A program made the position numbers and the translations under genes. A stretch of 33,106 nt of DNA from a virus. This document shows, piece by piece, positions 10,647-28,981 of the stretch. Positions within the stretch are counted from its first letter, which is position 1. Every line of letters starts with the position of its first letter. The DNA is taken from positions 1-33,106 of IMG/VR virus record IMGVR_UViG_3300047548_000541. One strand, written 5' to 3'. Below the pieces are notes generated by a model. The model saw only the letters and a program-made list of their open reading frames with translations. It was not told where the DNA came from and made no database searches.

Positions 10647-10910
10647 ATGACAACAACACGTAATTTTAATGCTGAAGAAAAGGCAAAGCTTACTCAAATT
10701 ATCCGCGAGGGTTCAACAATCCTTCAGGAAGTTGAGGATCTTAATGGTAGCTTAAGTGACACTATTAAGGCTGTAGCCGAAGAGCTACAGATTAAGCCAG
10801 GTATCCTAAAGAAGGCAATTAACATTGCACACAAGGGCGAATATCAACGCCATGCTGAGGACTTTAGTATGCTTGAAGATGTTCTTGCCGCAGTCGGTAA
10901 AGCAGAATAA
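10647..10910 (+). CDS. dsbA: DsbA-like double-stranded DNA binding protein
   Basis: An 87-aa all-helical protein, the size of T4 DsbA (89 aa), with the arrangement seen in marine phage homologues: an amphipathic helix (AEEKAKLTQIIREGSTILQE), the block DTIKAVAEELQIKPGILKKA, then HKGEYQRHAEDFSMLEDVL. T4 DsbA binds double-stranded DNA near late promoters and modulates late transcription. The start has AAAGGAAG 4 nt upstream. It is the last gene before the strong terminator. The assignment rests on size, helix pattern and remembered homologues, not an alignment. Confidence 0.72.
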   Translation: MTTTRNFNAEEKAKLTQIIREGSTILQEVEDLNGSLSDTIKAVAEELQIKPGILKKAINIAHKGEYQRHAEDFSMLEDVLAAVGKAE

Positions 10911-10923
10911 AACTTTTAAAATT

Positions 10924-10962
10924 AAACTAGACAGCAGTAACTCTATTGCTGTCTAGTTTTTT
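10924..10962 (+). terminator. Strong rho-independent terminator
   Basis: A perfect 13-bp inverted repeat (AAACTAGACAGCA at 10924-10936 and its complement at 10947-10959) with a 10-nt loop runs into six T residues (10957-10962). It closes the dsbA transcript and separates the virion block from the enzyme cassette that begins 10 nt later. Confidence 0.92.
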
Positions 10963-10972
10963 AGGATCACTG

Positions 10973-11446
10973 ATGAAAGACCGTGAAGATATTACTTTTG
11001 AAATTTATCTAAAACCTGTTTATGCAGATGTTCCACCCGGTGCTCAAATATTCATTAATGATGAATGTAAGTATGATGGGTTAATTGACAACGATACTGT
11101 TGTAAAGTTTAACCATACACTGTATTTTAATCAACAACACCAATTGCGTATTCATCGCTATAATAAAGAAAAAAGTCGCCCAGTTAACGATATTCATCAA
11201 ACACTTATACTTGATAAAATTATTATCGACGGCGTTGACATACAAAACATTATCTTTAGCAGAAGCTATAATGAACCAGATTATCCTGAGCATTGGGCAA
11301 AACAAAATCCAGATCTGCAAAAAACTATTATTGCAGAAACACATTTTGGATTTAACGGTGTTTGGAGATTAAACTTTACTAGCCCATTTTATATGTTTGT
11401 TATGAATTGTGTTGCTGGAAGGATGAACAATGTTTCAATTTACTAA
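10973..11446 (+). CDS. Unknown beta-rich protein heading the enzyme cassette
   Basis: A 157-aa protein. I chose ATG 10973 because AGGA lies 6 nt upstream; the open frame extends back to 10946, inside the terminator. The sequence is rich in predicted beta strands (ITFEIYLKPVYADVPPGAQI; HQLRIHRYNK; LILDKIIIDGVDI) and ends in an aromatic segment (HFGFNGVWRLNFTSPFYMF). The pattern reminds me of small carbohydrate- or ligand-binding beta sandwiches, but I cannot name a family. It overlaps the next gene by 17 nt, which implies co-translation with the aminotransferase-fold protein. Confidence 0.7.
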   Translation: MKDREDITFEIYLKPVYADVPPGAQIFINDECKYDGLIDNDTVVKFNHTLYFNQQHQLRIHRYNKEKSRPVNDIHQTLILDKIIIDGVDIQNIIFSRSYNEPDYPEHWAKQNPDLQKTIIAETHFGFNGVWRLNFTSPFYMFVMNCVAGRMNNVSIY

Positions 11447-12257
11447 AGAGCAACTTTCTCCTGCCCTCACTATCATAAGGGATAAAGAATTTGCACAATT
11501 CAAAGAAAACTGGTTTAAAAATCCACAAGTAGAAGTTTCTAGAGAAGAATTTAAAACAGCAGCAGACGCTTGGTTTAAATCATCTAAGCTCAATACATTG
11601 TATGGGTGGGAACACTTTGATCAAATTGATATAACAACTGGCAACACACAGTATATCGAATCATTCTTCATACGTTATGGTAAAGATAATTTCCAAATAA
11701 TTGAGAATGAATACGCTTACTATGGGCTAATGGGCAAATACGGGGTTAAGGTGGAAGACCTTAAACCAAATATGCCGTTAATAGTAACATTGCCTCATTA
11801 TGGTTATGGCGGTATGCGTCCAGAGTGGAATCAACTATTACAAATTTGCGAAGATCGTAACATTGATATACACATTGATTTTGCATGGTTGCCGCTTGCA
11901 AGTGGATTAGTTATTGACTTATCGCATCCTCGCATACAGTCGTTTGCAATGAGTCTATCTAAGTTTGCAATGACTTGGAATAAAGTTGGTTTGCGTTGGT
12001 CTCGTCAACGCACAATGGATTCAATTACTATTATGAATCATTACTACGGACCAATTAACTCAAATAAGTTTTCATGTGGTATGCATATGATCAATACGTT
12101 TACTCGCGATCATTTGTGGAACAAGTATGGAACATACTACAATGATCTTTGCACATCATTAGGAACAACACCAACTAATTTACTAACTATTATTCGCTTT
12201 GACGGTGACCCTATTTCATATGATTGCGGAGGTATATTAACAAATTTAAATGTATAA
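11430..12257 (+). CDS. Fold-type I PLP-dependent aminotransferase-like protein (compact)
   Basis: A 275-aa protein with the core of an aminotransferase: HIDFAWLPLASGL supplies the Asp150 expected to contact the pyridine nitrogen, followed by a Trp where Tyr is common. SFAMSLSKFAMTWNKVGLRW (171-190) matches the S-x-S-K loop with Lys178 as the Schiff-base lysine and an Arg189 near the phosphate site. The usual NPxNPTG segment is replaced by LPHYGYGG (121-128). At 275 aa it is much shorter than the usual 380-420, so the C-terminal small domain is reduced or absent. Activity is uncertain. It overlaps both neighbouring genes (17 and 8 nt). Confidence 0.65.
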   Translation: MFQFTKEQLSPALTIIRDKEFAQFKENWFKNPQVEVSREEFKTAADAWFKSSKLNTLYGWEHFDQIDITTGNTQYIESFFIRYGKDNFQIIENEYAYYGLMGKYGVKVEDLKPNMPLIVTLPHYGYGGMRPEWNQLLQICEDRNIDIHIDFAWLPLASGLVIDLSHPRIQSFAMSLSKFAMTWNKVGLRWSRQRTMDSITIMNHYYGPINSNKFSCGMHMINTFTRDHLWNKYGTYYNDLCTSLGTTPTNLLTIIRFDGDPISYDCGGILTNLNV

Positions 12258-13329
12258 AATTAACAACAGCTCCGACAAACTCAATGTTTGCATGTTAGGC
12301 AAAACATATGACCCTAGCGTTTTTTCCTACATCGCTGATCGTAGGATTAGAAATATACTTGAAACTTTAGTAATAGAAACAGCAGAAGATCTTAATCAAA
12401 TAGAAAAGTCTCTACTGTCGCATAACATACAAGTCTTGCGCCCATCTGATACTACGTTTAAGGTTGGTAAAAAAATATTACCTAGTATGTTAACCCCACG
12501 AGACCATCTTGCTATGATTGGGGATACATTTTACATGCCTACTCCTAGCTTAAACACTAAATGGAATACACTCAAAGGAGAATCTTGGCCTACAAATCCA
12601 CCTAACAGTACTGATGAGTTAGATGAATATGTTAAACAAGAATTAAACTTGTTTGGTGTTAGCTGTATTGAAGACTTGTTCGATTATGATTTTAGTTGCT
12701 TTACAGCTTTAGAAAATGCAATGGCTAGACAACGCATAGTGTATGATCAAAAAGTTGATTCAGCTATGTATCGCTTGTTTAATGGTAAAATTTATGTTGG
12801 AACATGGCCAGGTGATAATGTAGATGATGTACAGCGTAAGGCTAATGCATTATTTCCTAATTACGATTGCATAGTAATACCAAGTGAAGGACATTTGGAT
12901 GGTGTTATGTTCATTGCTTGTGAAGGACTTATATTTTCAAGCAGGGATATTGATGTATCAATTTACCATAAAGTGTTCCCAGGATGGCAAATAGTATACA
13001 ATAATCCATCTGTAAGTACAAACAATTCAAATTATAAATCTCTCAACAATGGTAAGTGGATTTTAAAAGACGCCGAGTACGATAATGAATTTTGTGACTT
13101 TATCGAACATTATTTTAGCACTTGGACTGGGGATATTTCTGAATCAACATTTGATGTTAACATGCTATTTTTAGATGAAAATAACGTTGGGTGTGTTACT
13201 GTAAATGAAAGCAATTTCAAGATACTTGAACAACATGGAATAACCCCGCATGTATTTCCATTTCGACACATAAACTTTTGGGATTCTGGCTTACACTGTT
13301 TAACAGCAGACATAGATAGAGGAAATTAA
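12250..13329 (+). CDS. Amidinotransferase-like (pentein fold) enzyme
   Basis: A 359-aa protein with amidinotransferase landmarks in order: LTPRDHLAMIGDTFYMP (81-97), like the substrate-site Arg/Asp loop; SEGHLDG (212-218), with the catalytic His and Asp; and FWDSGLHCLTADIDR (343-357), with Cys350 as the expected nucleophile. Arginine:glycine amidinotransferases move a guanidino group from arginine to an amine, and the length fits (about 350-420 aa). The true acceptor is unknown. It overlaps the upstream gene by 8 nt and is 1 nt from the oxygenase gene, so the three enzymes probably form one pathway. Confidence 0.78.
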   Translation: MYKINNSSDKLNVCMLGKTYDPSVFSYIADRRIRNILETLVIETAEDLNQIEKSLLSHNIQVLRPSDTTFKVGKKILPSMLTPRDHLAMIGDTFYMPTPSLNTKWNTLKGESWPTNPPNSTDELDEYVKQELNLFGVSCIEDLFDYDFSCFTALENAMARQRIVYDQKVDSAMYRLFNGKIYVGTWPGDNVDDVQRKANALFPNYDCIVIPSEGHLDGVMFIACEGLIFSSRDIDVSIYHKVFPGWQIVYNNPSVSTNNSNYKSLNNGKWILKDAEYDNEFCDFIEHYFSTWTGDISESTFDVNMLFLDENNVGCVTVNESNFKILEQHGITPHVFPFRHINFWDSGLHCLTADIDRGN

Positions 13330-13330
13330 A

Positions 13331-13906
13331 ATGCCAATTGATCAAACACTAATAGATGACAGCATAATCTATTCAAAAGAAAAGATGTCTGCTGCTACAA
13401 AAACTGTTTGTCCTCACATATATGCTATGAGTGATTTTCTATATCAACCTCTGCTAGATAAGTTCCTAAAATATTTAGATAGTTACGAAAATTGGAAAGC
13501 TGCTGAGCCACCATTACCTGGTAGACAGTTACTCAATTGGGAATTTGATACTGTAGTTGAAGAAGTACATATTTGTATGGAAGCAATTACTAATGAAGTG
13601 AATGCACTGCTTTCAACCAACCATAATAAGTTCCTTGGTCTAAACATTTGGAAAGATGTAAGCCCTTACAAAATTGAGGCTCATACAGACAATCCAGTTA
13701 TTGGAACCAGCTTGCAAATATACCTAAACAATTGCAATGCTAACTTAGCTACTAATTTCTCATACGAGGGCAAAAATATATCCCTGCCATACAACAGTAA
13801 CTCTGGATACATAATGAACAATGATTTTAGAGTAACGCATTGGATGACGACCCCATTGCCAGAAAACTTTAACCGTTATAGCTTGTATGCTATATGGAAA
13901 AGTTAA
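13331..13906 (+). CDS. 2-oxoglutarate/Fe(II)-dependent oxygenase-like protein
   Basis: A 191-aa protein with a double-stranded beta-helix metal site: HTD (118-120), the distal His in RVTHWM (His170) and an Arg in NRYSLYAIW (Arg182) suited to the 2-oxoglutarate carboxylate. The segment GTSLQIYLNNCNANLATNFS fits the central strands. These enzymes hydroxylate or otherwise oxidise amino acids, peptides, nucleotides or lipids. AGAGGAA precedes the start. It ends the enzyme cassette, directly before the gene 43 promoter. The substrate cannot be told. Confidence 0.78.
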   Translation: MPIDQTLIDDSIIYSKEKMSAATKTVCPHIYAMSDFLYQPLLDKFLKYLDSYENWKAAEPPLPGRQLLNWEFDTVVEEVHICMEAITNEVNALLSTNHNKFLGLNIWKDVSPYKIEAHTDNPVIGTSLQIYLNNCNANLATNFSYEGKNISLPYNSNSGYIMNNDFRVTHWMTTPLPENFNRYSLYAIWKS

Positions 13907-13966: not shown

Positions 13967-13984
13967 GGTCAGCCGTAAGTGACT
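13967..13984 (+). promoter_or_regulatory. Candidate gp43 translational operator hairpin
   Basis: GGTCA (13967-13971) pairs with TGACT (13980-13984), four Watson-Crick pairs plus one G-U, closing an 8-nt loop GCCGTAAG. The hairpin abuts the ribosome binding site AGGAG (13985-13989), which is 6 nt before the ATG. T4 and RB69 gene 43 mRNAs are repressed by their own polymerase at a hairpin with a roughly 5-bp stem and 8-nt loop just before the ribosome binding site, so the geometry matches. The stem is short and could be chance. Confidence 0.45.
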
Positions 13985-13995
13985 AGGAGATTTTT

Positions 13996-16656
13996 ATGAG
14001 TTACGTAGACGCTCTGTTTGACAGAGAACGAGATCGCATCCATATTGTGGAGCGAGTAAATGGCGAACGCCGTTACACAGATTATCCCGCCCAGTACATC
14101 TTTTATTATGATGACCCCAAGGGCAAATTCAAAACAATTTATGATACACCTGTAAGTAGGTTTAGTACACGCAACAATAAGGAGTTCCGTAAGGAACTTG
14201 CTATGCGTAAGGGAAAGACAACATGGGAAAGCGATATGAATCCTGTGTTCCGTTGTCTTGCAGAAAATTATTTAGGCAAGGATGCTCCAAAGTTACACGT
14301 AGCATTTTTCGACATCGAAACGGACTTCGATCCTGAAAAAGGTTTTAGTACACCCGAAGATCCGTTTACAAAGATTACTGCTATTACAGTTTACTTACAG
14401 TGGCTAGATCAGCTTGTCACACTTGCAATTCCACCAAATGGAATGAGCATGGAAAGTGCAAATGAGATTGGTGCAAAGTTTGATAACACATTCATGTTTG
14501 AAGAAGAAACAGACATGATGAAAACATTCCTCGATCTAATTGAGGACGCAGACGTGCTTAGTGGTTGGAACAGTGAAGGTTACGATATTCCATATTGTAT
14601 TAACCGCACTGCACGTATCCTAAGCAAAGATGATACACGTCGTTTTTGTTTATGGCAGCAAATGCCAAAAGGTCGTGAGTATGAAAAGTTTGGTGCAGTT
14701 CGCCAAACATTCGATCTAGTTGGTCGCATTCACGTTGACTATATGAACTTGTATCGCAAGTACACTTACGAAGAGCGCCACAGCTATTCTCTCGACGCTA
14801 TTGGTGATTACGAACTTGGTGAGCGTAAGGTTGTTTACGAAGGCAGCTTAGATGCACTGTACAACAAGGACTTTGAAAAGTTCATTGCGTATAACAGACA
14901 AGACGTTGCACTGCTTGGTAAGCTTGATGCAAAGCTTAAGTTTATGGATTTGTCTAACGTTCTCGCACATGAAAACACTGTGCTAATCCAAACAACTATG
15001 GGTGCAGTTGCACTAACAGAACAAGCTATCATTAACGAAGCACATAGTCTTGGATTAGTTGTACCTGATCGTAAGAATCATGGTGAGAACACACAAGCTG
15101 CCGGTGCATACGTTGCATATCCTAAAAAAGGATTGCATGAATGGATTGGCGCAATTGACATTAACTCGCTATACCCATCCGCAATTCGTGCGCTTAACAT
15201 GGCGCCAGAAAGCATTGTTGGTCAGCTAAGACCAATTATGACTGACAAATACATTACTAATAAAATGGAAAACGAAAAATGCAGTTTTGCAGAAGCGTGG
15301 GAAGGTTTGTTTGGTAGTTTAGAGTACACCGCAGTTATGGAACAAAAGCGTGGTGTAGAGATTACAATTGATTGGGCAGATGGCACTGAGGATGTGTTTA
15401 CTGGACACGAAGTCTTCAACATGATCTTTAAAAGCAATCAGCCATGGATTATGAGTGCAAACGGCACGATCTTTAGTTATGAACGTAAGGGCGTTGTACC
15501 AGGTCTGCTTGAACGTTGGTATGCAGAACGTAAAGTAATGCAGGCAAAGTTGAAGGAAGCTATCGCAGCAGGCGACAAGGAACAGATAGAGTTTTGGGAC
15601 AAGCGTCAGTTAGTTAAGAAGATTAACCTTAACTCACTTTACGGCGCAATCTTAAATCCAGGATGTCGTTTCTTTGACAAACGTATTGGTCAATCTACTA
15701 CACTAACTGGTCGTAGCATTGCTAAGCATATGGACAGTTATGTAAACGAATGTATTACTGGCAAGTATGATCACGTGGGTGACTCAATCATCTATGGTGA
15801 TACTGACTCTGTTTACTTTAGTGCGTGGCCTATTATCAAAGAAGATGTTGAAGCTGGTCGTATGGAATGGAACAAAGAGATTTGTGTACAGCTATATGAC
15901 AACATTGCAGATCAAGTTAATCAGAGCTTCCCAGCATTTATGGAGCAAGCATTCCATTGTCCACGTGAACTTGGCGCTATTATTAAAGGCGGTCGTGAAC
16001 TTGTTGCAAGTCGCGGTCTATACATTACTAAGAAGCGTTATGCAGTGCTTATCTATGATAAGGAAGGCAAGCGTCAAGATGTTGATGGTAAACCAGGCAA
16101 AGTAAAAGCTATGGGACTTGATCTTAAGCGTTCAGATACTCCAAAAGTAGTGCAGGACTTCTTAAGCAAGATTCTAATGGATGTGCTGTGTGGTGCAGAA
16201 GAGCGTGACATTCTAGATAAGATCGTTGCGTTCCGTGAGGAGTTTACTACACGACCTGCATGGGAAAAGGGTACACCAAAGCGTGTTAACAAGCTCACTT
16301 ACTATGGCGACATGGAAAAGAAGATGGGTAAATTCAATATGCCAGGTCACGTTAGGGCTGCACTAAATTGGAATACACTTAAGAAAATGTACAGCGACAA
16401 CTACAGTATTAAAATTACTGATGGCCAGAAAGTCATTGTATGTAAGCTTAAGGATAATCCAATTGGTTACACAAGCGTTGCATATCCTATTGATGAAAAC
16501 CATTTACCAGAATGGTTCTTAGATCTACCATTTGATCACAATGCAATGGAATCAACTATTGTTGATGGCAAAGTTGAAAACTTGCTTGGCGTACTCAACT
16601 GGAATCTAAGTAGCACAGTAGGTAATAACAATTCGTTTAATGCAATGTTTGGTTAA
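13996..16656 (+). CDS. 43: T4-type family B DNA polymerase (gp43)
   Basis: An 886-aa replicative polymerase, close to T4 gp43 (898 aa). Exonuclease motifs: FFDIETDFD (Asp106/Glu108), SGWNSEGYDIPY and YNRQDVALLGKLD. Polymerase motifs: DINSLYPSAIRALN (A), KKINLNSLYGAILNPG (B) and IYGDTDSVYFS (C). All catalytic carboxylates are present. The last residues, NNSFNAMFG, lie where T4-type polymerases carry the peptide that docks on the gp45 clamp; the same FNAMF occurs in DpdA. AGGAG lies 6 nt before the ATG, behind a candidate autoregulatory hairpin. Confidence 0.97.
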   Translation: MSYVDALFDRERDRIHIVERVNGERRYTDYPAQYIFYYDDPKGKFKTIYDTPVSRFSTRNNKEFRKELAMRKGKTTWESDMNPVFRCLAENYLGKDAPKLHVAFFDIETDFDPEKGFSTPEDPFTKITAITVYLQWLDQLVTLAIPPNGMSMESANEIGAKFDNTFMFEEETDMMKTFLDLIEDADVLSGWNSEGYDIPYCINRTARILSKDDTRRFCLWQQMPKGREYEKFGAVRQTFDLVGRIHVDYMNLYRKYTYEERHSYSLDAIGDYELGERKVVYEGSLDALYNKDFEKFIAYNRQDVALLGKLDAKLKFMDLSNVLAHENTVLIQTTMGAVALTEQAIINEAHSLGLVVPDRKNHGENTQAAGAYVAYPKKGLHEWIGAIDINSLYPSAIRALNMAPESIVGQLRPIMTDKYITNKMENEKCSFAEAWEGLFGSLEYTAVMEQKRGVEITIDWADGTEDVFTGHEVFNMIFKSNQPWIMSANGTIFSYERKGVVPGLLERWYAERKVMQAKLKEAIAAGDKEQIEFWDKRQLVKKINLNSLYGAILNPGCRFFDKRIGQSTTLTGRSIAKHMDSYVNECITGKYDHVGDSIIYGDTDSVYFSAWPIIKEDVEAGRMEWNKEICVQLYDNIADQVNQSFPAFMEQAFHCPRELGAIIKGGRELVASRGLYITKKRYAVLIYDKEGKRQDVDGKPGKVKAMGLDLKRSDTPKVVQDFLSKILMDVLCGAEERDILDKIVAFREEFTTRPAWEKGTPKRVNKLTYYGDMEKKMGKFNMPGHVRAALNWNTLKKMYSDNYSIKITDGQKVIVCKLKDNPIGYTSVAYPIDENHLPEWFLDLPFDHNAMESTIVDGKVENLLGVLNWNLSSTVGNNNSFNAMFG

Positions 16657-16668
16657 TTAAATATATCT

Positions 16669-17667
16669 ATGGGACTTAAGTTAAGCGATATATTAAAAAA
16701 ATCACTAGAGTTAGAAAAAATAGATTTTGCGTCTGTAATAGGTAAGGTAAATAATTACGTTACCGACGTAGAATCTAGTTTAAATGATCTAACATACGTA
16801 AGCACTGCTGAACAAAAAGAATTAGCTGAACAAATTAAGCATCTATTGCAACAGTATCAAGACAACAATTTAGCTATTAGCAAAAATCTAAAAAGAATTG
16901 TTTACAATGATGCTGAGCAATATATAAATGCTGGTGAAGATATTTGGAAGAAAAACTCTGAACAAATGTTATTTCACGAACATTTGGAATGGATAAAGCT
17001 CTTTCCTCCAAACAAAGATGAGTTTACTTCTTTTTCTTCTAAGATTTTTAATTACTCAAATTGGCAATATCCAGGATTAGTATACGGTGCTAAAAATACT
17101 GATTTACTAAATGCAATTAAGCATTGCGAACCAATGTATATCATGGAAAACTTTAAAGAATATTTTTCTTTGCAAAAAGAAAAGTTTCATCCTGATTTTA
17201 TCAGAAAGTTAAAGTTTTATCACTTAAACGACATTAACTTACTGCCAAAAAATGATATTGGGTTAATTGTCGCTTTTAATGAATTTCCTTTTTTACCTTG
17301 GTATTCAATACAAATCATATTGCACAAATTTATTGAGCGTCTAATGCCAGGTGGTATATTGATTTTTAATTATAACAATTGTGCAACTGTGCGTGGATTT
17401 AAAATGTTCGAAGATCAAATGATGACTTACAGTACACCACATATGTACATTAACTTTTTAACTCATCAAAATTTGGTTTTGCTCGAACATTTTGTGTCTG
17501 ATAAAGAAACGTTCAGCTATATGATATTCCAAAAAGATGGCAATAGAAAGCTGATAAAGAAATACCCAAGTGTTGGTTTTATTAAAGAACAACCTTCATT
17601 TAAGACACACGACTTGCACCATAAAAAGCGAATAGAATTAATTCGCAAAATAGTAAGCGGCAAGTAA
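16669..17667 (+). CDS. Possible SAM-dependent methyltransferase-like protein with coiled-coil N-terminus
   Basis: A 332-aa protein. Residues 1-75 are helical and charged, likely a coiled coil (AEQKELAEQIKHLLQQYQDN). From about 125 the pattern is Rossmann-like: GLVYGAKNTDLLNAIKHCEP, an acidic residue in MYIMENFKEYF, the strand DIGLIVAFNEFPF, then RLMPGGILIFNYNNCATVRG, which resembles the PGG strand-and-turn of class I methyltransferases. The canonical glycine-rich motif I is weak, so activity is uncertain. It starts 12 nt after gene 43 without a clear ribosome binding site and is followed by the clamp promoter. The substrate is unknown. Confidence 0.5.
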   Translation: MGLKLSDILKKSLELEKIDFASVIGKVNNYVTDVESSLNDLTYVSTAEQKELAEQIKHLLQQYQDNNLAISKNLKRIVYNDAEQYINAGEDIWKKNSEQMLFHEHLEWIKLFPPNKDEFTSFSSKIFNYSNWQYPGLVYGAKNTDLLNAIKHCEPMYIMENFKEYFSLQKEKFHPDFIRKLKFYHLNDINLLPKNDIGLIVAFNEFPFLPWYSIQIILHKFIERLMPGGILIFNYNNCATVRGFKMFEDQMMTYSTPHMYINFLTHQNLVLLEHFVSDKETFSYMIFQKDGNRKLIKKYPSVGFIKEQPSFKTHDLHHKKRIELIRKIVSGK

Positions 17668-17731: not shown

Positions 17732-18463
17732 ATGAAAGACTATCTAATTGATATCGTTAAGCATACTGTTAGCCTCGGTTGTTTCGACAACCTTCGTGTT
17801 GACGGAACAGACAAGGAAACCAAGATCAGTTCAACTGAAAAGGAACGAACTGTTGTTCTACGTGCTAAGCTTCACGGTGTTATTCCAGAGTTTGAGGGAC
17901 TATTTGGTATTCCAAATCTTCCGCTACTCAGCACACTACTAAACATTCCTGAATATCAGGATGACGGTGCAAAGCTAACTGTTGATCGCAGAGCTGTTAA
18001 TAATGTTGAACAGCCAGTTAACATTAAATTTGAAAACGCAGCAGGCGACTTCAAGAACGAGTTCCGTTTGATGGCTTCAAACATTATTGAAAACATTGAA
18101 CCACTTCTAAAGTTCAACGTAACAAGCTGGCCATGCACATTTATCCCAACTGTTGCTGCACAGCAGCGTCTAAAGTATCAGACATCTGCACACCCAGAAG
18201 AGAAGGCTGTTACATTCCGTATTGAAAACGGTGATGTACGTGCAAGCATTGGTGATGGTTCTTCACACAATGGTAGCTTCGTATTCCATACTGGTGTTGA
18301 TAAGAAGGTTAAGGAAACTATTGTAGTACCAGTTCTCGTGGTAAATAGTGTACTAACACTCGCTGGTAATAAGACAATCCAGATGGGTGGACCAGGAATG
18401 ATGATTAGTGTTGATTCAGGTCTCGCTGGATACGACTATATCATTCCAATGCTTTCAAAGTAA
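17732..18463 (+). CDS. 45: Sliding clamp, gp45-like
   Basis: A 243-aa protein, slightly longer than T4 gp45 (228 aa). EFEGLFGIPNLPLLSTLL (residues 51-68) corresponds to the conserved DLNGFLGILSLV region of gp45. The rest alternates strands and short helices as in a two-domain clamp subunit, ending GLAGYDYIIPMLSK. Trimeric gp45 rings hold the polymerase on DNA and, in T4, activate late transcription. It has AGGA 6 nt before the ATG and its own promoter. The next gene, dpdA, follows after 10 nt. Sequence similarity is low, so the call rests on the motif, size and position near gene 43. Confidence 0.78.
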   Translation: MKDYLIDIVKHTVSLGCFDNLRVDGTDKETKISSTEKERTVVLRAKLHGVIPEFEGLFGIPNLPLLSTLLNIPEYQDDGAKLTVDRRAVNNVEQPVNIKFENAAGDFKNEFRLMASNIIENIEPLLKFNVTSWPCTFIPTVAAQQRLKYQTSAHPEEKAVTFRIENGDVRASIGDGSSHNGSFVFHTGVDKKVKETIVVPVLVVNSVLTLAGNKTIQMGGPGMMISVDSGLAGYDYIIPMLSK

Positions 18464-18473
18464 GGAGTACATT

Positions 18474-20225
18474 TTGGCAGAGCAATCTAACAAACAATCA
18501 AATCATGAGTTATATGAGTTTCAAAAGGGTAATGATTTAACACGCCCAAAACATGCAGTGTTTTTGCCTGCCATTTCTACTTTTTATAATACAGCAGTAA
18601 GCAGGCAGAGACATAACTCAAACTACGTTCCTAAAGAACGTATCCCAAAGAAGATGACACAAGGCGTTGAAGGTCTAAACTTTTTAGATCCTCAAAAGAG
18701 CATCTTCTATTACCCATGGGGATTGCATTCAGCAGGTCACGCACAATTGGATATTACACAAGTAGTACCAAAGGAAAGCATGATCCGTGATCGTCCCCGT
18801 GATGGTACTAGCTTTATGCTTGGTGACTCTGGGGGCTTCCAGATTGGTAAAGGTAAGTGGGAAGGCGAGTGGAGAGATCCAACTGGGCCAGAAGTAGCAG
18901 CGGAGATGGCACGTCAAGTTGCCAAAGGCGTTGATATGATTCCACTTATTGATCAAACTGGTAATCCAAAGACTGATCGTAATGGTAATCCAAAGTATAA
19001 GAAAGTTGATCACGCAAAAGTGTATCAAGCTAAACTTGATGCAGCACAAGCAAAGCGTAAGCAAGTTCTTAACTGGATGGATGCTTATATGGATTATGGC
19101 ATCATCTTAGATATTCCAGCATGGGTCAGTCGTAGCCCAGCAGGTATTGCTGCAACAGGTATTACTAGCTATCAAGAAGCTGTTAATGCAACCAAGTATA
19201 ACAATCAATTCTTCATTGAGAATAGAACTGGTGCTTGTAAGTTCCTCAACGTGCTACAGGGTGAAACACACGCTGATGCAGAGGACTGGTATCAGCAGAT
19301 GAAGGACTTCTGTGATCCAAAGAAGTATGACAAGCACTTTAATGGCTGGGCTATGGGTGGTCAGAATATGTGTGACATCCACTTAATCTTAAAGCGACTT
19401 GTTGCACTACATTTTGATGGACTTCTAGTAGAAGGCGTGCATGATTGGATGCACTTCTTAGGTACATCAAAGATGGAGTGGGCTGTACTGCTTACTGACT
19501 TACAAAATGCTGTACGCAAGTATTATAATCCAAACTTTACGATTAGCTTTGACTGTGCAAGTCCATTCCTCGCTAATGCTAATGGGTTGATCTACACAAC
19601 TATTCGTTTAGAGGATAGAGAAAAGTGGATCTATAAGATGGAACCCAGCATTGATAATCGAAAGTACAGCAGTGATACACGTACATTGCGTGATGGGTTA
19701 TTGCAAGAAAAGATTGTTCCAGAGTTTGAGGATAGTCCTGTATCAGAACTATTAGAAGTTAAGGATGTTTGTGTATATCCTCCAAACAAAGCAAACAAGA
19801 TGGGCGTTGTATCTAAGACAAGCTGGGATACTTTCAGCTATGCCTTGCAGATGGGACATAACACTTGGTTACACATCTTAGCTGTACAACGTGCTAACGA
19901 TGCTTATTATAATAAGGGAATGTTCCCAGCAATGCTTATTGATGAACGCTTTGAACGTGTAGTGTTTAGAGACATTATTGATAGCATTTTCTCAAAGACT
20001 GATCGTGCGGAAGCAGAAGCAGAAATTGATAAGTGGGATAAGTTCTATCTACGTATCATTGGTCAACGTGGTGCTGTTGGTAAGAAAACGCTTAATAGTA
20101 AGACTGGCTTTAATGCAATGTTTGATACACCAGAAGTATTAGTGGATGATAACGTTAGCATTGAAGATGAATACGAACTAGATCAAAACAAAGCAGACAA
20201 ACTCGACGAGGAAGATAATGATTAA
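18474..20225 (+). CDS. dpdA: DpdA-like DNA guanine transglycosylase (TGT fold)
   Basis: A 583-aa protein related to tRNA-guanine transglycosylases. GDSGGFQIGKG (117-127) matches the TGT DSGGFQ motif with Asp118. LNVLQGETHADAEDWY (258-273) and GWAMGGQN (291-298) match the base-binding loops, and SFDCASPFLANANGLIY (358-374) aligns with the nucleophile region (Asp360). DpdA enzymes exchange guanine in DNA for a 7-deazaguanine. The start is TTG 18474, with AAGGAG 6 nt upstream; upstream ATGs fall inside the clamp gene. FNAMF at 546-550 repeats the polymerase C-terminus and may bind the clamp. The tail after it is acidic. It overlaps the next gene by 8 nt. Confidence 0.88.
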   Translation: MAEQSNKQSNHELYEFQKGNDLTRPKHAVFLPAISTFYNTAVSRQRHNSNYVPKERIPKKMTQGVEGLNFLDPQKSIFYYPWGLHSAGHAQLDITQVVPKESMIRDRPRDGTSFMLGDSGGFQIGKGKWEGEWRDPTGPEVAAEMARQVAKGVDMIPLIDQTGNPKTDRNGNPKYKKVDHAKVYQAKLDAAQAKRKQVLNWMDAYMDYGIILDIPAWVSRSPAGIAATGITSYQEAVNATKYNNQFFIENRTGACKFLNVLQGETHADAEDWYQQMKDFCDPKKYDKHFNGWAMGGQNMCDIHLILKRLVALHFDGLLVEGVHDWMHFLGTSKMEWAVLLTDLQNAVRKYYNPNFTISFDCASPFLANANGLIYTTIRLEDREKWIYKMEPSIDNRKYSSDTRTLRDGLLQEKIVPEFEDSPVSELLEVKDVCVYPPNKANKMGVVSKTSWDTFSYALQMGHNTWLHILAVQRANDAYYNKGMFPAMLIDERFERVVFRDIIDSIFSKTDRAEAEAEIDKWDKFYLRIIGQRGAVGKKTLNSKTGFNAMFDTPEVLVDDNVSIEDEYELDQNKADKLDEEDND

Positions 20226-20463: not shown

Positions 20464-20975
20464 GCTTAGCAGATAGACAAACACGCACTTTCTTTACTGG
20501 TGTAGAAGTTGAACACACGGTTGCTTACGGTACCAAGACATTATTTATCGTAGGCACACCATCTATTGATGAGATCACTACAGAGATTAAGGATCTTGCA
20601 GAAGATGGCTATGTAGTTGAGCATTTGTATTTTGGCACAAGCCAAACATACAAAAACATTGACGTGGCTACAGCTAAAAAGTTTGAGCGCATCATTCATC
20701 ATTTTCTTGATAACACAGATTACTGGGTTACACTAGACTTTGATGTTGCAGATATTAATCGTGTACACGAAGCTGGTTATTGTCAGCGTATGAAGTTTAT
20801 CCCAATGGTAAGCGTAAAGATGCCATACATTAAATTGCTTAACTATCATACTACACTTAAAATTGATGATACACAGTGGGGCTATAGCAATCCTGGTGTA
20901 TGGACTCATCACTTGCAATCACTACTAGGCAAGGAAGTATACACAGATTGGTCAGCCTACAAAGGGGATAAATGA
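20460..20975 (+). CDS. Unknown protein between dpdA and oxidoreductases; candidate deazaguanine tailoring enzyme
   Basis: A 171-aa protein I do not recognise. It appears alpha/beta: strand (TLFIVGTP), helix (SIDEITTEIKDLAEDGY), strand (VVEHLYFG), helix (AKKFERIIHHFLDNT), strand (YWVTLDFDV), strand (FIPMVSVKMP), strand (TLKIDD). This looks like part of a TIM-barrel or half-barrel, with no CxxxCxxC cluster motif. It overlaps the genes on both sides by 4 nt (ATGA). Its place directly after dpdA makes it a candidate for the step that changes CDG, for example a DpdL-type decarboxylase, but I cannot match it to DpdL from memory. Confidence 0.7.
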   Translation: MSLADRQTRTFFTGVEVEHTVAYGTKTLFIVGTPSIDEITTEIKDLAEDGYVVEHLYFGTSQTYKNIDVATAKKFERIIHHFLDNTDYWVTLDFDVADINRVHEAGYCQRMKFIPMVSVKMPYIKLLNYHTTLKIDDTQWGYSNPGVWTHHLQSLLGKEVYTDWSAYKGDK

Positions 20976-21868
20976 AAAGTTTAGTTGCTGGGCTTGGCAT
21001 TGGCAAATTGTATGTTGATGTCTTAACGCAGTTGGGTGCTGACGTTGTAACCGTTGACAAGGATGCAACTAAGAACCCAACCTTCACTAACTTTGCTGAA
21101 GCTTGTGCCAGTGATGAATACGACACAGTACATATCTGTACACCAAACTTCACACATGAAGAATTGTTTTATCAGTATGTACAAGGCAAGCATAAGCCAA
21201 ACAGTATTGTATTTGTAGAGAAACCTGGTTTTATAGAACCACAGCGTTGGCAAAAAGCAAGCGAAGCTGATGTTAGACTAATGATGGTTAAAAATAACCA
21301 GTATAGATCAAACATTCAAGAGATGTGCGATGATGCTAAAACAGCAGGGTTTATACGTTTGAGTTGGATCAATTACAATCGTGTACCAAATCCAGGCACT
21401 TGGTTTACTACAAAGGAATTAGCATGGGGTGGCGTTAGCAGAGATTTAATGCCACACTTGCTAAGCTATCTTCCAATGTTCTACCCAAGATCATTTAGAG
21501 ATTTTGGCATCTATCGAAAATTAGTACAGCAACGATCACAACTATCTGACTTAACATCAAGCGATTATGGCACAGTTAAAGCAGATGGCATTTATAATGT
21601 TGATGATTATTGTGCAATTGAAATGGCGTTAGCTGAAACTAGATTGCTTCTAATTGCAGATTGGCGCAGTATGCGTGAAGATAATGTTGGAATTGAAATG
21701 TTTACTGAGGCTGGTGCCGTATATCCACTTGGTCTTTGCCCCGAGGAAGCGTATAGTACTATGATACAAACTGCTTTACGCAATCAAAATGTTGACGAGT
21801 TTTGGAATGATCAACGAATACAAGACATTTGGATTCATAAAGTACTAGAGGAATTAAATGCAGCGTGA
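20972..21868 (+). CDS. Gfo/Idh/MocA-family oxidoreductase
   Basis: A 298-aa protein. AGLGIGKLYVDVLTQLGADV is a Rossmann start with the Gly-rich loop. TVHICTPNFTHEELF and VFVEKPGF are the conserved TPN..H and EKP motifs of NAD(P)-dependent sugar or inositol dehydrogenases. The second half (GTWFTTKELAWGGVSRDLMP) fits the substrate domain, with the D-x-x-x-H typical of the family (DLMPHLL). It is shorter than most members (330-400). AAGGGGA precedes the start; it overlaps neighbours by 4 and 11 nt. The substrate is probably a (nucleotide) sugar, but this is not shown. Confidence 0.88.
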   Translation: MKSLVAGLGIGKLYVDVLTQLGADVVTVDKDATKNPTFTNFAEACASDEYDTVHICTPNFTHEELFYQYVQGKHKPNSIVFVEKPGFIEPQRWQKASEADVRLMMVKNNQYRSNIQEMCDDAKTAGFIRLSWINYNRVPNPGTWFTTKELAWGGVSRDLMPHLLSYLPMFYPRSFRDFGIYRKLVQQRSQLSDLTSSDYGTVKADGIYNVDDYCAIEMALAETRLLLIADWRSMREDNVGIEMFTEAGAVYPLGLCPEEAYSTMIQTALRNQNVDEFWNDQRIQDIWIHKVLEELNAA

Positions 21869-22769
21869 AGTAAGACTATTAACTACAATGGGTCAAGGTT
21901 ATTTCGAGGAAATTATTTGGAATAAACCTGAGATTAAACCATACGAGATTGAAGTTAAAGCAGTAATGACTGGCATTTGTCGTAGTGATATTGACATGAT
22001 GAAAGGTCAGTTTAGCTTACCGTTGTGGATGCATGGTCACGAAGGACTTGGTATTGTTACAGAAATTGGTAGTCAAGTTCGAGACGTAGCTGTTGGCGAT
22101 TACGTTGCAACTCGTGGTGAACCTGCATACGCAGATTATTACAATGCCCCCATTGAAACGTATGTGAAAGTTCCAGAGTTACATCAAAAGTATATCGTAG
22201 AACCAATTGCATGTGGCATTAATGTGTTTCGTGAGATAATGCTACGTGCAGATATCTTTAATGGACAACGCATTGCCATTATTGGCACAGGGTTCCTAAG
22301 TCATGTTGTATACACTAATCTAAACTTGCGCGGTGTTTATAGCGGCATTGATGTAATTGGTAATTACAGCAAAGAGTTTTGGATGGAAGAACATAGTGTT
22401 GAAGTACAGCAATACTCAGAAGGCAAATACGATGTTGTTGTTGATCTAAGCAATAACGCAATTTCATTAACACAAGACATTTACAATCCAAATGCATTGC
22501 TAGTATTTGCAAGTGGCAAGCATCCAAAAGTAGCTAGCACGTTTGATTACCTTCTTTGGAATGCAGTTACAATGGTATGCCCAAGTCCACGTACACCAGG
22601 GTTCCATGCTTGTATGCTTGAAGCTGTTAGCCAAATTGAAACTGGCAAGCTTAATGTAGAAAACTTTTGGACAAAAGGATATAACCGCAATACAGAATGG
22701 CAACAGGCATTTCAGGATAGTTTGGATCGTCCAGAAGGATTTAACCGCGCTTACTTAAATTGGACTTAA
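21858..22769 (+). CDS. MDR-type zinc alcohol/sugar dehydrogenase
   Basis: A 303-aa protein of the medium-chain dehydrogenase family. GICRSDIDMMKG supplies Cys41 and Asp44, WMHGHEGLGIVTEIG supplies His61 and Glu62, and EPIACGINVFRE is the next conserved block; together these fit a catalytic zinc site. RIAIIGTGFLSHVVYTNLNL is the NAD(P) Rossmann motif. The lobe with four cysteines that binds structural zinc is missing, and the protein is shorter than the usual 340-350 aa. GAGG precedes the ATG, which overlaps the upstream oxidoreductase by 11 nt. It ends the dpdA operon. Confidence 0.88.
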   Translation: MQREVRLLTTMGQGYFEEIIWNKPEIKPYEIEVKAVMTGICRSDIDMMKGQFSLPLWMHGHEGLGIVTEIGSQVRDVAVGDYVATRGEPAYADYYNAPIETYVKVPELHQKYIVEPIACGINVFREIMLRADIFNGQRIAIIGTGFLSHVVYTNLNLRGVYSGIDVIGNYSKEFWMEEHSVEVQQYSEGKYDVVVDLSNNAISLTQDIYNPNALLVFASGKHPKVASTFDYLLWNAVTMVCPSPRTPGFHACMLEAVSQIETGKLNVENFWTKGYNRNTEWQQAFQDSLDRPEGFNRAYLNWT

Positions 22770-23230: not shown

Positions 23231-23418
23231 AGGACCAAATGATTAAGATTTTTGACGATCTCGATAACTATCGCAAGTTTTGCGTAGAGTATGGGTATTC
23301 GTTTAATGAAGCCCATCTATACAAGGGCGATACGCCATGGGGTCAGTACTCACGCTGGCGCAGGGGCGACCGTGTAGTTGACAACTGGAAGAAGGATGCC
23401 CGTTATGGCATGGAATAA
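23227..23418 (+). CDS. Small conserved marine T4-like phage protein
   Basis: A 63-aa protein (FDDLDNYRKFCVEYGYSFNE, then WGQYSRWRRGDRVVDNWKKD) of a type widespread in T4-like phages of marine bacteria; function unknown. GAGGAAG precedes the ATG, which overlaps the previous stop by 4 nt. Its 3' end overlaps the start of the transpeptidase gene by 14 nt. Confidence 0.78.
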   Translation: MKDQMIKIFDDLDNYRKFCVEYGYSFNEAHLYKGDTPWGQYSRWRRGDRVVDNWKKDARYGME

Positions 23419-23839
23419 GCTAGCTTCGCTAGTAATGGGGGCAATGTTTATCGCCCTTCTTTCCAACCCAGCAAAAGCTGATTGGGTAAGCATTACTGTA
23501 GACATTAGTGATCAGCTAATGTATGTGGAAAATGGAAATGGGCAGCAGGAAGTTTATCCTGTTAGCACTGCACGTAAGGGCTACCGCACACCATATGGTG
23601 ATTTTAGTCCATACTACATGACTAAGATGCATTACAGCAGGAAGTATAATAACTCTCCAATGCCAAACAGCATCTTCTTTAAGGGCGGATATGCCATTCA
23701 TGCAACATATGATGTTAAGCGTCTTGGGCGCCCAGCAAGTCATGGGTGTGTACGACTAAGCCCAGACCATGCTGAACGACTTTACTACATGGTAAAGGAT
23801 GTTGGGATGGACAATACATCAATTCGTATCGTACCTTGA
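23405..23839 (+). CDS. Exported L,D-transpeptidase (YkuD domain)
   Basis: A 144-aa protein. I chose ATG 23405 because it gives a textbook Sec signal: MAWNK, a hydrophobic stretch LASLVMGAMFIALL, then NPAKA before Asp26. Longer starts add RR-containing residues. The mature domain has the YkuD core: GGYAIHATYDVKRLGRPASHGCVRL, cut here into AIHA (His99) and SHGCVRLS (His113, Cys115, Arg117). These enzymes make 3-3 cross-links in peptidoglycan or attach proteins to it in the periplasm. At about 119 aa the mature protein is a minimal domain without LysM. A phage copy suggests remodelling of the host wall during infection. Confidence 0.9.
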   Translation: MAWNKLASLVMGAMFIALLSNPAKADWVSITVDISDQLMYVENGNGQQEVYPVSTARKGYRTPYGDFSPYYMTKMHYSRKYNNSPMPNSIFFKGGYAIHATYDVKRLGRPASHGCVRLSPDHAERLYYMVKDVGMDNTSIRIVP

Positions 23840-24126
23840 GCGAAATAGAATATATTATTGTAGATAACACCCCAGTGGAAACCAATTGGTTTCCACTGGG
23901 GTTACCTATGTTTAGATGCCGACGTACAAATACACGTTATCCAAACACCACGATACAGCAAATTAAAAAATTAATGCGTGAAGCTGAGTTTACAATTAAT
24001 GTAGACTTTAAAATTGTTCCTAACTATTATGGGGATACAGTTATATTAAAATTACATCCACGCATTCAAAGCTATGCTAGTTGGATATTATTGATGTGGG
24101 AACAGAAAAGAGAAGAATATGAATAG
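23836..24126 (+). CDS. Small hypothetical protein overlying a long palindrome
   Basis: The frame opens at TTG 23836 (96 aa), overlapping the transpeptidase stop, or at ATG 23908 (72 aa, MFRCRRTNTRYPNTTIQQIK). Neither start has a clear ribosome binding site. The C-terminal half looks real: VDFKIVPNYYGDTVILKLHP then a helix SYASWILLMWEQKREEYE. The 34-nt palindrome at 23869-23902 lies between the two starts, so with the later start it would be 5' untranslated. It overlaps the glycosyltransferase gene by 8 nt. Function unknown. Confidence 0.62.
   Translation: MSEIEYIIVDNTPVETNWFPLGLPMFRCRRTNTRYPNTTIQQIKKLMREAEFTINVDFKIVPNYYGDTVILKLHPRIQSYASWILLMWEQKREEYE
23869..23902. repeat. 34-nt perfect palindrome
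   Basis: The arms are 17 nt each, perfectly complementary around a central AATT (23884-23887). The left arm begins ACCCCAGTGG (23869) and the right arm ends CCACTGGGGT (23902). As RNA it would form a 15-bp hairpin. No T-run follows, so it is not a standard terminator. It begins 30 nt after the transpeptidase stop and ends 5 nt before ATG 23908, so it could be a transcript-stability or RNase III processing element, a translation block, or a protein-binding site. Confidence 0.9.
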
Positions 24127-25183
24127 AGTTTATATTGTCGACATTGAAGCTGTAGACACACGTTATACAAAGCAATGGAAAGAACACTTACCAATCCAAA
24201 TGCGTGAAGCTGGGTTGGATGTTGTAAAGATTTCAGGCGGTGATGTTCCAATGGCAACAACACCAGGTGCGTTTTTAAACTTTGCTGGCACTAACAACTA
24301 TAAAGCACAGCAAATGATTGAGATTAGCCGTGAGTTTGCATTTGGCAATATTAAGAACGGCGACTATTTCCTATACACAGATGCATGGAACCCAACTGTA
24401 ATACAGCTTAAGTACATGGCTGAATTACTTGGTGTTAAGATCCGTATTGGCGGACTATGGCATGCCGGTAGTTATGATCCACAGGACTTCTTAGGACGAC
24501 TTATTGGCAATAAGCCATGGGTACGTAATGCAGAGCGTAGCATGTATGATTGCTATGATGATAACTTCTTTGCAACTCAATTCCACTTAGACATGTTTTT
24601 GCAAACACTATTTGATTTCCCATTTGAGGGTGCAGTAGATCCTAAGTGTCACATTGTTGGTTGGCCTATGGAGTATCTGCCAAAGGTGATGCAGCCATAT
24701 GATACAGTGCAGAAGAAGAATAAGATCATCTTCCCACATCGCATTGCTCCAGAGAAGCAAGTTGAAATCTTTAAAGACCTTGCTGAGAGTATGCCAGAAT
24801 ATGAATGGTTCATTGCACAAGAACATAACTTGAGCAAAGATGAATACCATAAGCATATGGCTGAGAGCAAAGTTATGTTTAGTGCTAACTTGCAAGAAAC
24901 ACTTGGTATTAGCGCATACGAAGCTGCACTAGTTGGAACATATCCAATGGTTCCAGATCGTTTAAGCTATACTGAGATGTGGGAAGAAAAGTATCTAAAT
25001 CGTTGGGTAACAAGTTGGAAAGCATACCAAGACAATAAGGGTTATCTAATGCAGTTCATTCGTAACACAATGGAACGCAATGACCTTTATGAGAAGTCTA
25101 AGGAAATGGCAGCACAAACTGGCGATAAGTTCTTTAACGGTAAAGAATTATACTCGACTATTAAGAAGTCAATGGCAATCTAA
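24119..25183 (+). CDS. GT-B glycosyltransferase-like protein
   Basis: A 354-aa protein. The C-terminal half has the nucleotide-sugar binding pattern of GT4-type enzymes: KIIFPHRIAPEKQVEIFKDL (202-221), then LQETLGISAYEAALVGTYPM (258-277) with the two Glu residues of the E-x7-E motif (Glu260, Glu268). The N-terminal half carries the acceptor side. Such enzymes transfer a sugar from a nucleotide donor to DNA bases, lipids, proteins or glycans. The ATG overlaps the previous gene by 8 nt, and the epimerase gene follows after 7 nt, suggesting a shared sugar pathway. The acceptor is unknown. Confidence 0.82.
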   Translation: MNRVYIVDIEAVDTRYTKQWKEHLPIQMREAGLDVVKISGGDVPMATTPGAFLNFAGTNNYKAQQMIEISREFAFGNIKNGDYFLYTDAWNPTVIQLKYMAELLGVKIRIGGLWHAGSYDPQDFLGRLIGNKPWVRNAERSMYDCYDDNFFATQFHLDMFLQTLFDFPFEGAVDPKCHIVGWPMEYLPKVMQPYDTVQKKNKIIFPHRIAPEKQVEIFKDLAESMPEYEWFIAQEHNLSKDEYHKHMAESKVMFSANLQETLGISAYEAALVGTYPMVPDRLSYTEMWEEKYLNRWVTSWKAYQDNKGYLMQFIRNTMERNDLYEKSKEMAAQTGDKFFNGKELYSTIKKSMAI

Positions 25184-25190
25184 ATAGAAC

Positions 25191-26051
25191 ATGAAGAAAA
25201 TACTTGTAACAGGTGCGACTGGTTACATTGGCAGCCATGTATGCAAAGTTTTAAAGCAGCATGGATACCATGTAACTGGGTGGGATATCAACATTCATGG
25301 GGAGTATAACAACATTACTCCCTACATTGATGACTTTAGAGAATGGGATATTACTCATTATGTACGTGGTTCTTTTGACTGTATTGTTCATTTAGCAGCA
25401 AGAGGCAGTGTTCCAGTTAGTTTACGTGAACCAACTGATTACTACCGTGTTAATGCAATGGGCACTGCAAACGTTTTAGATCGTATTGAGAACGATCATT
25501 TTATCTTTGCAAGTTCAAGCTCAGTGTTTAGTATGGTTAGTCCGTATGCACGTAGCAAGATGGCAGCAGAAGATATTATCAAAGAAAAAAGCAGCAACTA
25601 CACTATCTTCCGTTTCTTTAATGTATCAGGCACTGATGGAGTAAATCATCAGTTAGCTAAAACACCACACCTAATCAAAGCTGTTGCACAAGCAATTATT
25701 GGTAAGCGTGATTTCGTTATTAATGGCACCAATTATCTAACCCGTGATGGTACTTGCATACGTGACTATGTTCATGTGTTAGATGTTGCTAACGCTATTG
25801 TTACAGCAATCAACGCTGGACCACAAAACACACCATATGAATGCATCGGTAGTGCAAAAGGATATTCAGTCTTTGATGTTATCCGTGCAATGGAAAAAGT
25901 TACTAATATTAAACTTATGTACAAAGTTGGTCCGCCCCGTGAAGGTGATGCTGTTAGCGCCATTGTGGATAACTTAAGCAGTTTGGTTAAACTTGAAAAG
26001 ACACTCGAAGATATGTGCTGGGATCAGTACTGCTACGAGCTAAAGAATTAA
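25191..26051 (+). CDS. NAD-dependent sugar epimerase/dehydratase (extended SDR)
   Basis: A 286-aa protein: TGATGYIG (7-14) is the NAD loop, Asp32 the ribose-binding acid, HLAARGSVPVS the next conserved block, SSSSVF the active Ser region, and YARSK (Tyr119, Lys123) the catalytic pair. GTCIRDYVHVLDVANAI matches the UDP-galactose 4-epimerase/WcaG branch. It is about 50 aa shorter than GalE. It would supply a nucleotide sugar, perhaps for the glycosyltransferase just upstream. No ribosome binding site is evident in the 7-nt gap. Confidence 0.9.
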   Translation: MKKILVTGATGYIGSHVCKVLKQHGYHVTGWDINIHGEYNNITPYIDDFREWDITHYVRGSFDCIVHLAARGSVPVSLREPTDYYRVNAMGTANVLDRIENDHFIFASSSSVFSMVSPYARSKMAAEDIIKEKSSNYTIFRFFNVSGTDGVNHQLAKTPHLIKAVAQAIIGKRDFVINGTNYLTRDGTCIRDYVHVLDVANAIVTAINAGPQNTPYECIGSAKGYSVFDVIRAMEKVTNIKLMYKVGPPREGDAVSAIVDNLSSLVKLEKTLEDMCWDQYCYELKN

Positions 26052-26071
26052 TTTAAATTATCGCAGTTTTT

Positions 26072-26080
26072 TGCTATACT
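26072..26080 (+). promoter_or_regulatory. Extended -10 promoter for folE
   Basis: TGCTATACT is an extended -10 (TGnTATACT), with a second TATACT at 26080-26085 overlapping it. No -35 is seen. Transcription would begin about 12-15 nt before the GGAG ribosome binding site (26089-26092) of folE. Confidence 0.5.
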
Positions 26081-26099
26081 ATACTATAGGAGTTTTTAG

Positions 26100-28480: not shown

Positions 28481-28981
28481 ATGGCAAATACACCTGTATC
28501 ATACAAGTACACATCAACAAAAGAATACGTTAATGCATTTCCATGTGCATATCGTCAGTGGCGTGCGGACAGTCACTGCAATTTAATCCATGGCTATAGC
28601 TTCTCTATGAAGTTTTACTTTGGCACTAATGATTTGGATGCTCGTAACTGGGCAGCAGACTATGGTGGTCTAAAGGAACTTAAGAAGATTTTGGAAGATC
28701 AGTTTGACCATACATTACTAGTAGCAGAAGATGATCCGGAGATCGAAACATTTAAGATGCTACAAGAAAAGAAAATGGCAAAACTTACTATCTTACCCAA
28801 GTTAGGTTGTGAAAGTTTGGCTGATATGCTTTACAAGTATATCAACAGCGTGTATATTCCTGACATGTGGGGACCAAGTGAAGCTGCTAGATTATGGTGT
28901 TATCGTGTTGAAGTTCGCGAAACCCAAGCCAACATGGCATATAGAGAAGGACATCGCGAATGGAACGAAGAATTGATTTAA
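28481..28981 (+). CDS. queD: QueD-like 6-carboxytetrahydropterin synthase, phage type
   Basis: A 166-aa T-fold protein. Cys33 in SHCNLIHGYSF fits the catalytic cysteine, FDHTLLVAEDDPE gives the conserved Asp-His (76-77), and WCYRVEVRETQ the substrate Glu. QueD turns dihydroneopterin triphosphate into 6-carboxytetrahydropterin. Of the three zinc-binding His residues in E. coli QueD, two are Tyr here (Tyr24 in FPCAYRQW and Tyr39 in HGY); only His37 remains. His32 next to the Cys may compensate. AAGGA precedes the ATG, and a pseudoknot lies in the leader. It overlaps the next gene by 22 nt. Confidence 0.85.
   Translation: MANTPVSYKYTSTKEYVNAFPCAYRQWRADSHCNLIHGYSFSMKFYFGTNDLDARNWAADYGGLKELKKILEDQFDHTLLVAEDDPEIETFKMLQEKKMAKLTILPKLGCESLADMLYKYINSVYIPDMWGPSEAARLWCYRVEVRETQANMAYREGHREWNEELI

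Follow-up and report, generated by a model that had tools for sequence, protein, structure and literature searches.

A co-inherited gene cassette for a compact PLP-enzyme-like protein, an amidinotransferase-like protein and a 2-oxoglutarate-oxygenase-like protein in large uncultured marine and freshwater phages

Introduction

What might a phage make with an aminotransferase-like protein, an amidinotransferase and an oxygenase encoded in a single run of genes? The question is raised by IMG/VR virus record IMGVR_UViG_3300047548_000541, analysed over its full 33,106 bases (the window), in which four forward open reading frames, all intact, occupy positions 10973-13906 between a strong terminator and a gene for a gp43-type DNA polymerase. 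These genes, here called BETA, AT, AMD and OG, had been taken in a preliminary description, made from the DNA letters alone, for a small pathway leading to a guanidino or hydroxylated amino-acid compound. Here we describe them as a cassette of large uncultured marine and freshwater phages that is real, intact and, judging from sequences and structural models, enzymatically plausible. With a confidence somewhat short of even, we favour its interpretation as a phage-specific tailoring module that would place a guanidine and a hydroxyl group on an amino compound; this compound is probably an amino sugar or is linked to a sugar.

Results

Linkage and inheritance of the cassette

AT, OG and AMD served as queries to collect relatives, and linkage was counted over non-redundant loci with 2.5 kb on either side. 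The cassette genes co-occur in more than 60 distinct viral contigs and in at least six gene orders (BETA-AT-AMD-OG, BETA-AT-AMD, BETA-AT-OG, BETA-AT-<OG, AMD-BETA-AT-<OG and AMD-OG-AT). One or more partners lie within 2.5 kb of AT at 32 of 34 loci (OG at 27, BETA at 22, AMD at 16), and AT accompanies OG at 29 of the 33 OG loci. BETA adjoins AT in 24/24 loci, a count that is biased since BETA was located via AT, and one clade of loci lacks BETA. The linkage that the preliminary description had proposed to look for in relatives is therefore present. Its treatment of the three enzymes as one pathway holds for AT and OG, which form a tight core, but not for AMD as an obligatory member, as AT and AMD stand side by side in 16 of the 34 loci.

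Between-locus distances correlate at 0.78 for AT and BETA, 0.75 for AT and OG and 0.78 for AT and AMD, compared with 0.43-0.60 for AT and neighbouring phage genes; these values are indicative, the subsets being unequal in size. Measured against the nearest relative, dN/dS is 0.042 for BETA, 0.032 for AT, 0.081 for AMD and 0.037 for OG. The genes are thus shown to be under purifying selection and recurrently linked, and the cassette is inherited as a unit.

It is also cargo, because a syntenic relative, L252, lacks it: there about 80 bases separate the 87-aa gene that forms the left flank (56% identity) from the polymerase gene (70%) downstream, with no cassette in between. The G+C content of the cassette genes is 0.32-0.36, as against 0.41-0.42 in the flanking 87-aa and polymerase genes, and a search with the whole cassette as DNA found no match in deposited phages. 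L252 carries a distant AT homologue (24%) two genes before a dpdA homologue, together with an AMD homologue (33%) within a run of glycosyltransferase (GT), epimerase, AMD, DegT and FolE genes.

The four proteins

When a 19-member AMD profile was searched against the PDB using hmmsearch, it matched AGAT (E 1.2e-22), SxtG (E 3.7e-20) and inosamine-phosphate amidinotransferase (E 2.4e-16), the similarity spanning N-terminal and C-terminal parts; in PHROGs, AMD matched phrog_25854 (E 1.6e-7). A single-sequence Pfam search with the window AMD protein gave no match, and the phage branches are strongly diverged, at 24-42% identity to this protein. AMD carries the motifs EGHLD (H215 and D217) and GLHC350 together with D170 and D85, a catalytic and binding set which we take to correspond to human C407, H303, D254, D305 and D170. 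C350, H215, D217 and D85 are present in 19/19 diverged sequences, and D170 in 10/19 (with N in 6). Profile and residues together identify AMD as a member of the arginine-donor amidinotransferase superfamily, in agreement with what its two motifs had suggested at the outset.

The second protein, AT, would be a miniature pyridoxal 5'-phosphate (PLP) enzyme. Its AlphaFold 2 model (pLDDT 85.6, pTM 0.85) was matched by Foldseek to 711 PDB chains at E <= 0.001 (best E 1.1e-8), and structural matching (VIA) gave a Z of 17.9 over 262 aligned residues, the fold spanning residues 7-275. K178, D150, W153, S175, G187 and R189 are invariant in 53/53 diverged sequences, and the motifs SLSK178, G71-x-T73 and GxR at R189 can be recognised; from motif order and spacing, K178 would form the Schiff base, D150 would contact the ring nitrogen, and S175 and R189 would bind phosphate. 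The model thus shows a predicted fold-type I PLP-enzyme fold with its cofactor residues, which bears out the earlier view of AT as a compact aminotransferase-like protein. An AT profile matched no PLP enzyme in the PDB, and matches to PF00282 in 9 of 18 members were weak (best E 0.0065) and under the cut-off where shown. Single-sequence searches of Pfam and PHROGs and profile searches of the PDB gave no clear family for AT, OG or BETA.

Neither AT nor BETA was matched by tblastn in 50,697 deposited phages. Of 84,980 cellular genomes, 2 contained AT; both were assembled from metagenomes and have neighbours beside AT that look phage-like by eye, and the family is nearly phage-restricted. Distant homologues in L252 (13555-14415) and L253 (6694-7548) share 22-24% identity with AT and keep SLSK; by sequence, they may represent a second branch of this phage PLP family.

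In OG, H118-x-D120, H170 and R182 are invariant in 59/59 diverged sequences, so that the protein is shown at the level of its residues to retain the putative iron and 2-oxoglutarate (2OG) ligand set on which its initial naming as a 2OG oxygenase was based. Within the family, PF13640 is matched by 6/59 members (best E 3.4e-4), PF03171 by 2 (best E 9e-4) and phrog_61, a 2OG-Fe(II) oxygenase family of PHROGs, by one (E 5e-7); tblastn with OG found no match in deposited phages. The catalytic residues read from the window, whose loss in alignments had been named as a possible objection, are thus kept across AT, AMD (H215, D217 and C350) and OG alike.

BETA, initially described as a beta protein, was modelled as a beta-sandwich (pLDDT 89.5, pTM 0.84). 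Its closest structural matches (VIA) were CBM60 modules (Z 10.7 for 2xhh and 10.5 for 2xfd), with the next fold at 5.4, and Foldseek found vCBM60 at E 3.5e-4; the model shows a predicted CBM60-type fold, that of a calcium-dependent carbohydrate-binding module. When 36 relatives were aligned, the best-conserved residues fell mostly within the C-terminal half, which holds a conserved C-terminal W-x-L-x-F-x-x-P-F-Y motif. The top matches among viral models were uncharacterised proteins. In L168 (55-2212; E 1.5e-24), a BETA-like protein is also encoded ahead of a 515-aa protein that looks like a radical SAM enzyme, and in L173 (9014-11397) a marginal one has a PF05118 hydroxylase and an amidinotransferase as neighbours. 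The BETA fold may thus accompany modifying enzymes of phages more generally.

Other phage amidinotransferase units

The phage amidinotransferase family is very large, a single scan listing at least 572 loci, and falls into several conserved units, of which the present cassette is one. In another (L169, L172, L173 and L174), a UDP-Glc/GDP-Man dehydrogenase is followed by a 2OG-like protein of about 172 aa, in which H98xD100, H158 and R168 are invariant, and by an amidinotransferase of about 306 aa; nearby are a gene resembling UvdE and a 'DQEPL' protein that belongs to no known family. A further unit has the order GT, epimerase, AMD, DegT aminotransferase and FolE. In L171 an amidinotransferase lies near a carbamoyltransferase and DegT, and in cyanophage S-SCSM2R one stands beside KdsA/KdsB and a 2OG oxygenase. 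Among non-redundant AMD loci, about one in three (L190-L248) has a core of DUF6875, an arginyltransferase C-terminal-like (ATE_C-like) protein, AMD and DUF6614; like the 'DQEPL' protein, the ATE_C-like protein could not be assigned to a family. Three large phage records (G001-G003, 209-316 kb) each hold about three distinct amidinotransferase genes.

Deazaguanine genes

The window also encodes FolE, QueD, a QueE-like protein and a TGT/DpdA-like protein (Table 1). Its region 24119-26774 holds a GT, epimerase and FolE block (continued by QueD and QueE) without AMD or DegT. At L205, L219 and L229, AMD and a DegT-like aminotransferase stand between epimerase and FolE, and the order at L211 is similar; the L211 block also holds QueD and QueE, and a DpdA homologue is found in L205, L219 and L229. 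Among records that bear AT or OG, many of which are fragments, the QueD family is present in 4/36 and a DpdA homologue in 4 of the 20 searched, and one 209-kb record lacks both. PF01702 is a poor probe for DpdA, missing a phage DpdA-like protein to which the window protein has a 96% match. Since QueD is found in only 4/36 of these records, deazaguanine is not the general substrate of the cassette, and the sparse co-occurrence of QueD and DpdA weakens it as a general explanation; in the lineage of the window it may still be a substrate.

Layout of the locus and its flanks

The four reading frames lie where the preliminary description had placed them and are as tightly packed as it had claimed, with overlaps of 17 nt between BETA and AT and 8 nt between AT and AMD, and a 1-nt gap between AMD and OG. 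The terminator was absent from the list of a simple scan, and its support comes from folding: the region 10905-10975, with its T run, folds at -23.6 kcal/mol (z -6.1), a value equalled by 0/200 shuffles, and the hairpin is also kept in the nearest relative. A promoter scan found no sigma-70-like site between the terminator and BETA, in line with the suggestion that the cassette has no promoter of its own there.

Table 1. Features of the window, by position
Feature	Position	Strand	Description
87-aa gene	10647..10910	+	phrog_12534 / phrog_639, transcriptional-regulator-like; left flank
Intrinsic terminator	10926..10965	+	Stem ACTAGACAGCA/TGCTGTCTAGT with T-rich tail; parts the 87-aa gene from the cassette
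BETA	10973..11446	+	157 aa; ATG behind AGGA; predicted beta-sandwich of CBM60/CBM36-type fold
AT	11430..12257	+	275 aa; predicted fold-type I PLP enzyme
AMD	12250..13329	+	Member of the arginine:glycine amidinotransferase (GATM/StrB/SxtG) superfamily
OG	13331..13906	+	191 aa; 2OG-Fe(II)-oxygenase-like
DNA polymerase, gp43 type	13996..16656	+	Right flank
TGT/DpdA-like protein	18408-20225		DSGGFQ motif; no Pfam match; TGT name from motif and neighbourhood
FolE	26100-26774		GTP cyclohydrolase I
QueD	28481-28981		
QueE-like protein	29334-30185		Radical SAM protein; QueE name from motif and neighbourhood

The nearest named relatives of the polymerase are those of jumbo T4-like phages, with 50% identity to that of Sinorhizobium phage Phosso. 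The T4-late-promoter-like sequence TATAAATA occurs at 43 sites where 78 would be expected and, because such sites are rarer than chance, the one before the polymerase gene is uninformative by itself. Directly 5' of the polymerase start, at 13968-13984, lies a stem-like sequence, GTCAGCCGTAAGTGAC, part of which is conserved in L252; by analogy with T4 gp43, it could be a translational operator. After the polymerase gene, positions 16669-17667 encode a 332-aa protein of no known family, with a very low G+C content (0.30), which is evolving fast (77% identity in a near relative, 22% in L252) and, judged by eye, is perhaps methyltransferase-like. A GFO/IDH/MocA oxidoreductase and an alcohol dehydrogenase are encoded in overlapping frames at 20972-22769; they possibly provide a sugar or cyclitol oxidation step, and among the fetched loci their relatives were found only in a near-identical phage. 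The small protein encoded at 23378-23839 has an HGCVRLS motif and a signal-like segment at its N-terminus; it resembles an L,D-transpeptidase.

Discussion

How might the four proteins work together? In the module that we tentatively favour, OG would take an amino or sugar compound and hydroxylate it at an unactivated carbon, and AT would act through a PLP aldimine, by transamination or by elimination or cyclisation of the hydroxylated substrate. With arginine as donor, AMD would then amidinate the primary amine so formed, yielding a guanidine and releasing ornithine; this step is probably optional, because AT and OG often occur without an adjoining AMD. BETA would keep the acceptor, probably sugar-bearing, close to the enzymes, and the product would most likely decorate a glycan or a sugar-linked phage component, be it the virion, the host surface or modified DNA. 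A sugar-linked product is our best guess because sugar-nucleotide enzymes recur beside phage amidinotransferases and because of the BETA fold. The idea of a single pathway in the preliminary description stands, while the amino-acid product that it named becomes one option, a sugar-linked one being at least as favoured by the contexts of amidinotransferase paralogues and by BETA. Several observations weigh against the module as we describe it: no Pfam family was significantly matched by the window OG itself; aminotransferases, lyases and cyclases all fall within 1-2 Z of one another among the structural matches of AT; a common CBM60 fold alone does not show that BETA would bind carbohydrate; the DUF6875 core has no sugar gene; and the units that contain AT are set among replication genes without directly adjoining sugar genes. 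A bolder version, which we regard as doubtful, is that phages have invented a guanidinylated and hydroxylated modification, made via a phage-only mini PLP enzyme and carried by phage DNA or by a glycan of the virion, where it would protect against host defences, with the amidinotransferase units of jumbo phages as parallel branches of one guanidinylation chemistry.

The tight pairing of AT and OG would also suit a pathway from arginine to a cyclic or hydroxylated guanidino amino acid, in which OG would hydroxylate arginine and AT would serve as a PLP cyclase, following the logic of VioC-VioD in capreomycidine or of GntC in enduracididine formation, and AMD would amidinate a second amine. The capreomycidine pair does combine a 2OG arginine hydroxylase, which acts first, with a PLP enzyme encoded alongside it (PMC8399532), and GntC, whose PLP cyclase logic has been described (PMC10367076), is among the structural matches of AT, as is MppQ. 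We nevertheless hold this pathway to be unlikely, as GntC and MppQ score level with dozens of aminotransferases and C-S lyases, the 275-aa AT covers these larger enzymes only with big gaps, and no peptide-assembly gene was seen nearby. The deazaguanine genes of the window, the blocks at L205, L211, L219 and L229 that include AMD and DegT, and the distant AT homologue near dpdA in L252 would fit DNA hypermodification, with the module amidinating or hydroxylating a 7-deazaguanine, for example a preQ1-like amine, inserted by a phage DpdA-like enzyme; given how few records with AT or OG have QueD or DpdA, we consider this less probable still.

Proteins could also be the target, if OG hydroxylated side chains, AMD guanidinylated lysine or another amine, and BETA served as substrate or adaptor. 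The constant, if biased, adjacency of BETA and AT and the neighbours of the BETA-like proteins in L168 and of AMD in L173, where that neighbour is an Asp/Asn hydroxylase (PF05118), are consistent with such a role, which we nonetheless think improbable, since it is hard to see what a PLP enzyme would do on a protein side chain and one clade of loci does without BETA. We give very little credence to the view that AMD belongs to creatine or guanidinoacetate metabolism and that the remaining genes are unrelated cargo: a survey of marine viruses treats phage GATM/GAMT in this way (PMC11360552), but the linkage and co-inheritance of AMD with AT and OG are strong and independent of gene order.

Amidinotransferases have already been annotated in phages (PMC2853527, PMC11360552), and clusters for amino-acid and sugar modification, including 2OG-bearing ones of jumbo cyanophages, are known (PMC7824862), so that calling the cassette 'not a known phage function' was too strong, though these reports concern other gene sets. 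Metabolic and sugar-modifying genes are known from large phages. What appears to be new is the combination of a PLP enzyme with an amidinotransferase and a 2OG oxygenase in one unit that is shuffled yet co-inherited; the literature searched on phage amidinotransferases with an oxygenase or PLP enzyme gave no description of it or of the nearly phage-restricted 275-aa PLP family. Provided that it is active, the unit would bring guanidinylation into phage chemistry, help to explain the large phage amidinotransferase family now annotated as glycine amidinotransferase, and supply a compact family of PLP enzymes.

Among phage clusters, the amino-acid/sugar secondary-metabolite-like cluster of the jumbo cyanophage S-SSM6a resembles the cassette in combining small-molecule modifying enzymes, 2OG oxygenases among them, in large T4-like phages; it differs in having a halogenase, a carbamoyltransferase and a methylase, and amidinotransferases and aminotransferases go unmentioned in its description (PMC7824862). 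Campylobacter phages CP220 and CPt10 likewise have a cluster with a putative glycine amidinotransferase (PMC2853527), with radical SAM proteins where the cassette has AT and a 2OG oxygenase. The likeness of AT and OG to VioC-VioD is one of analogy, as no kinship at the sequence level was found. AMD belongs by profile to the same superfamily as GATM, StrB, SxtG and HsvA (E 1e-22 to 1e-16) and keeps their catalytic Cys and His and binding Asp, and is set apart from them by the divergence of its branches and by its lack of a single-sequence Pfam match. AT would share with AAT, GntC, MppQ and VioD its fold (Z about 17), the SxSK lysine, the ring-nitrogen Asp and GxR; those enzymes are of some 350-430 aa, whereas AT has 275, gave no clear profile match to them and is nearly confined to phages.

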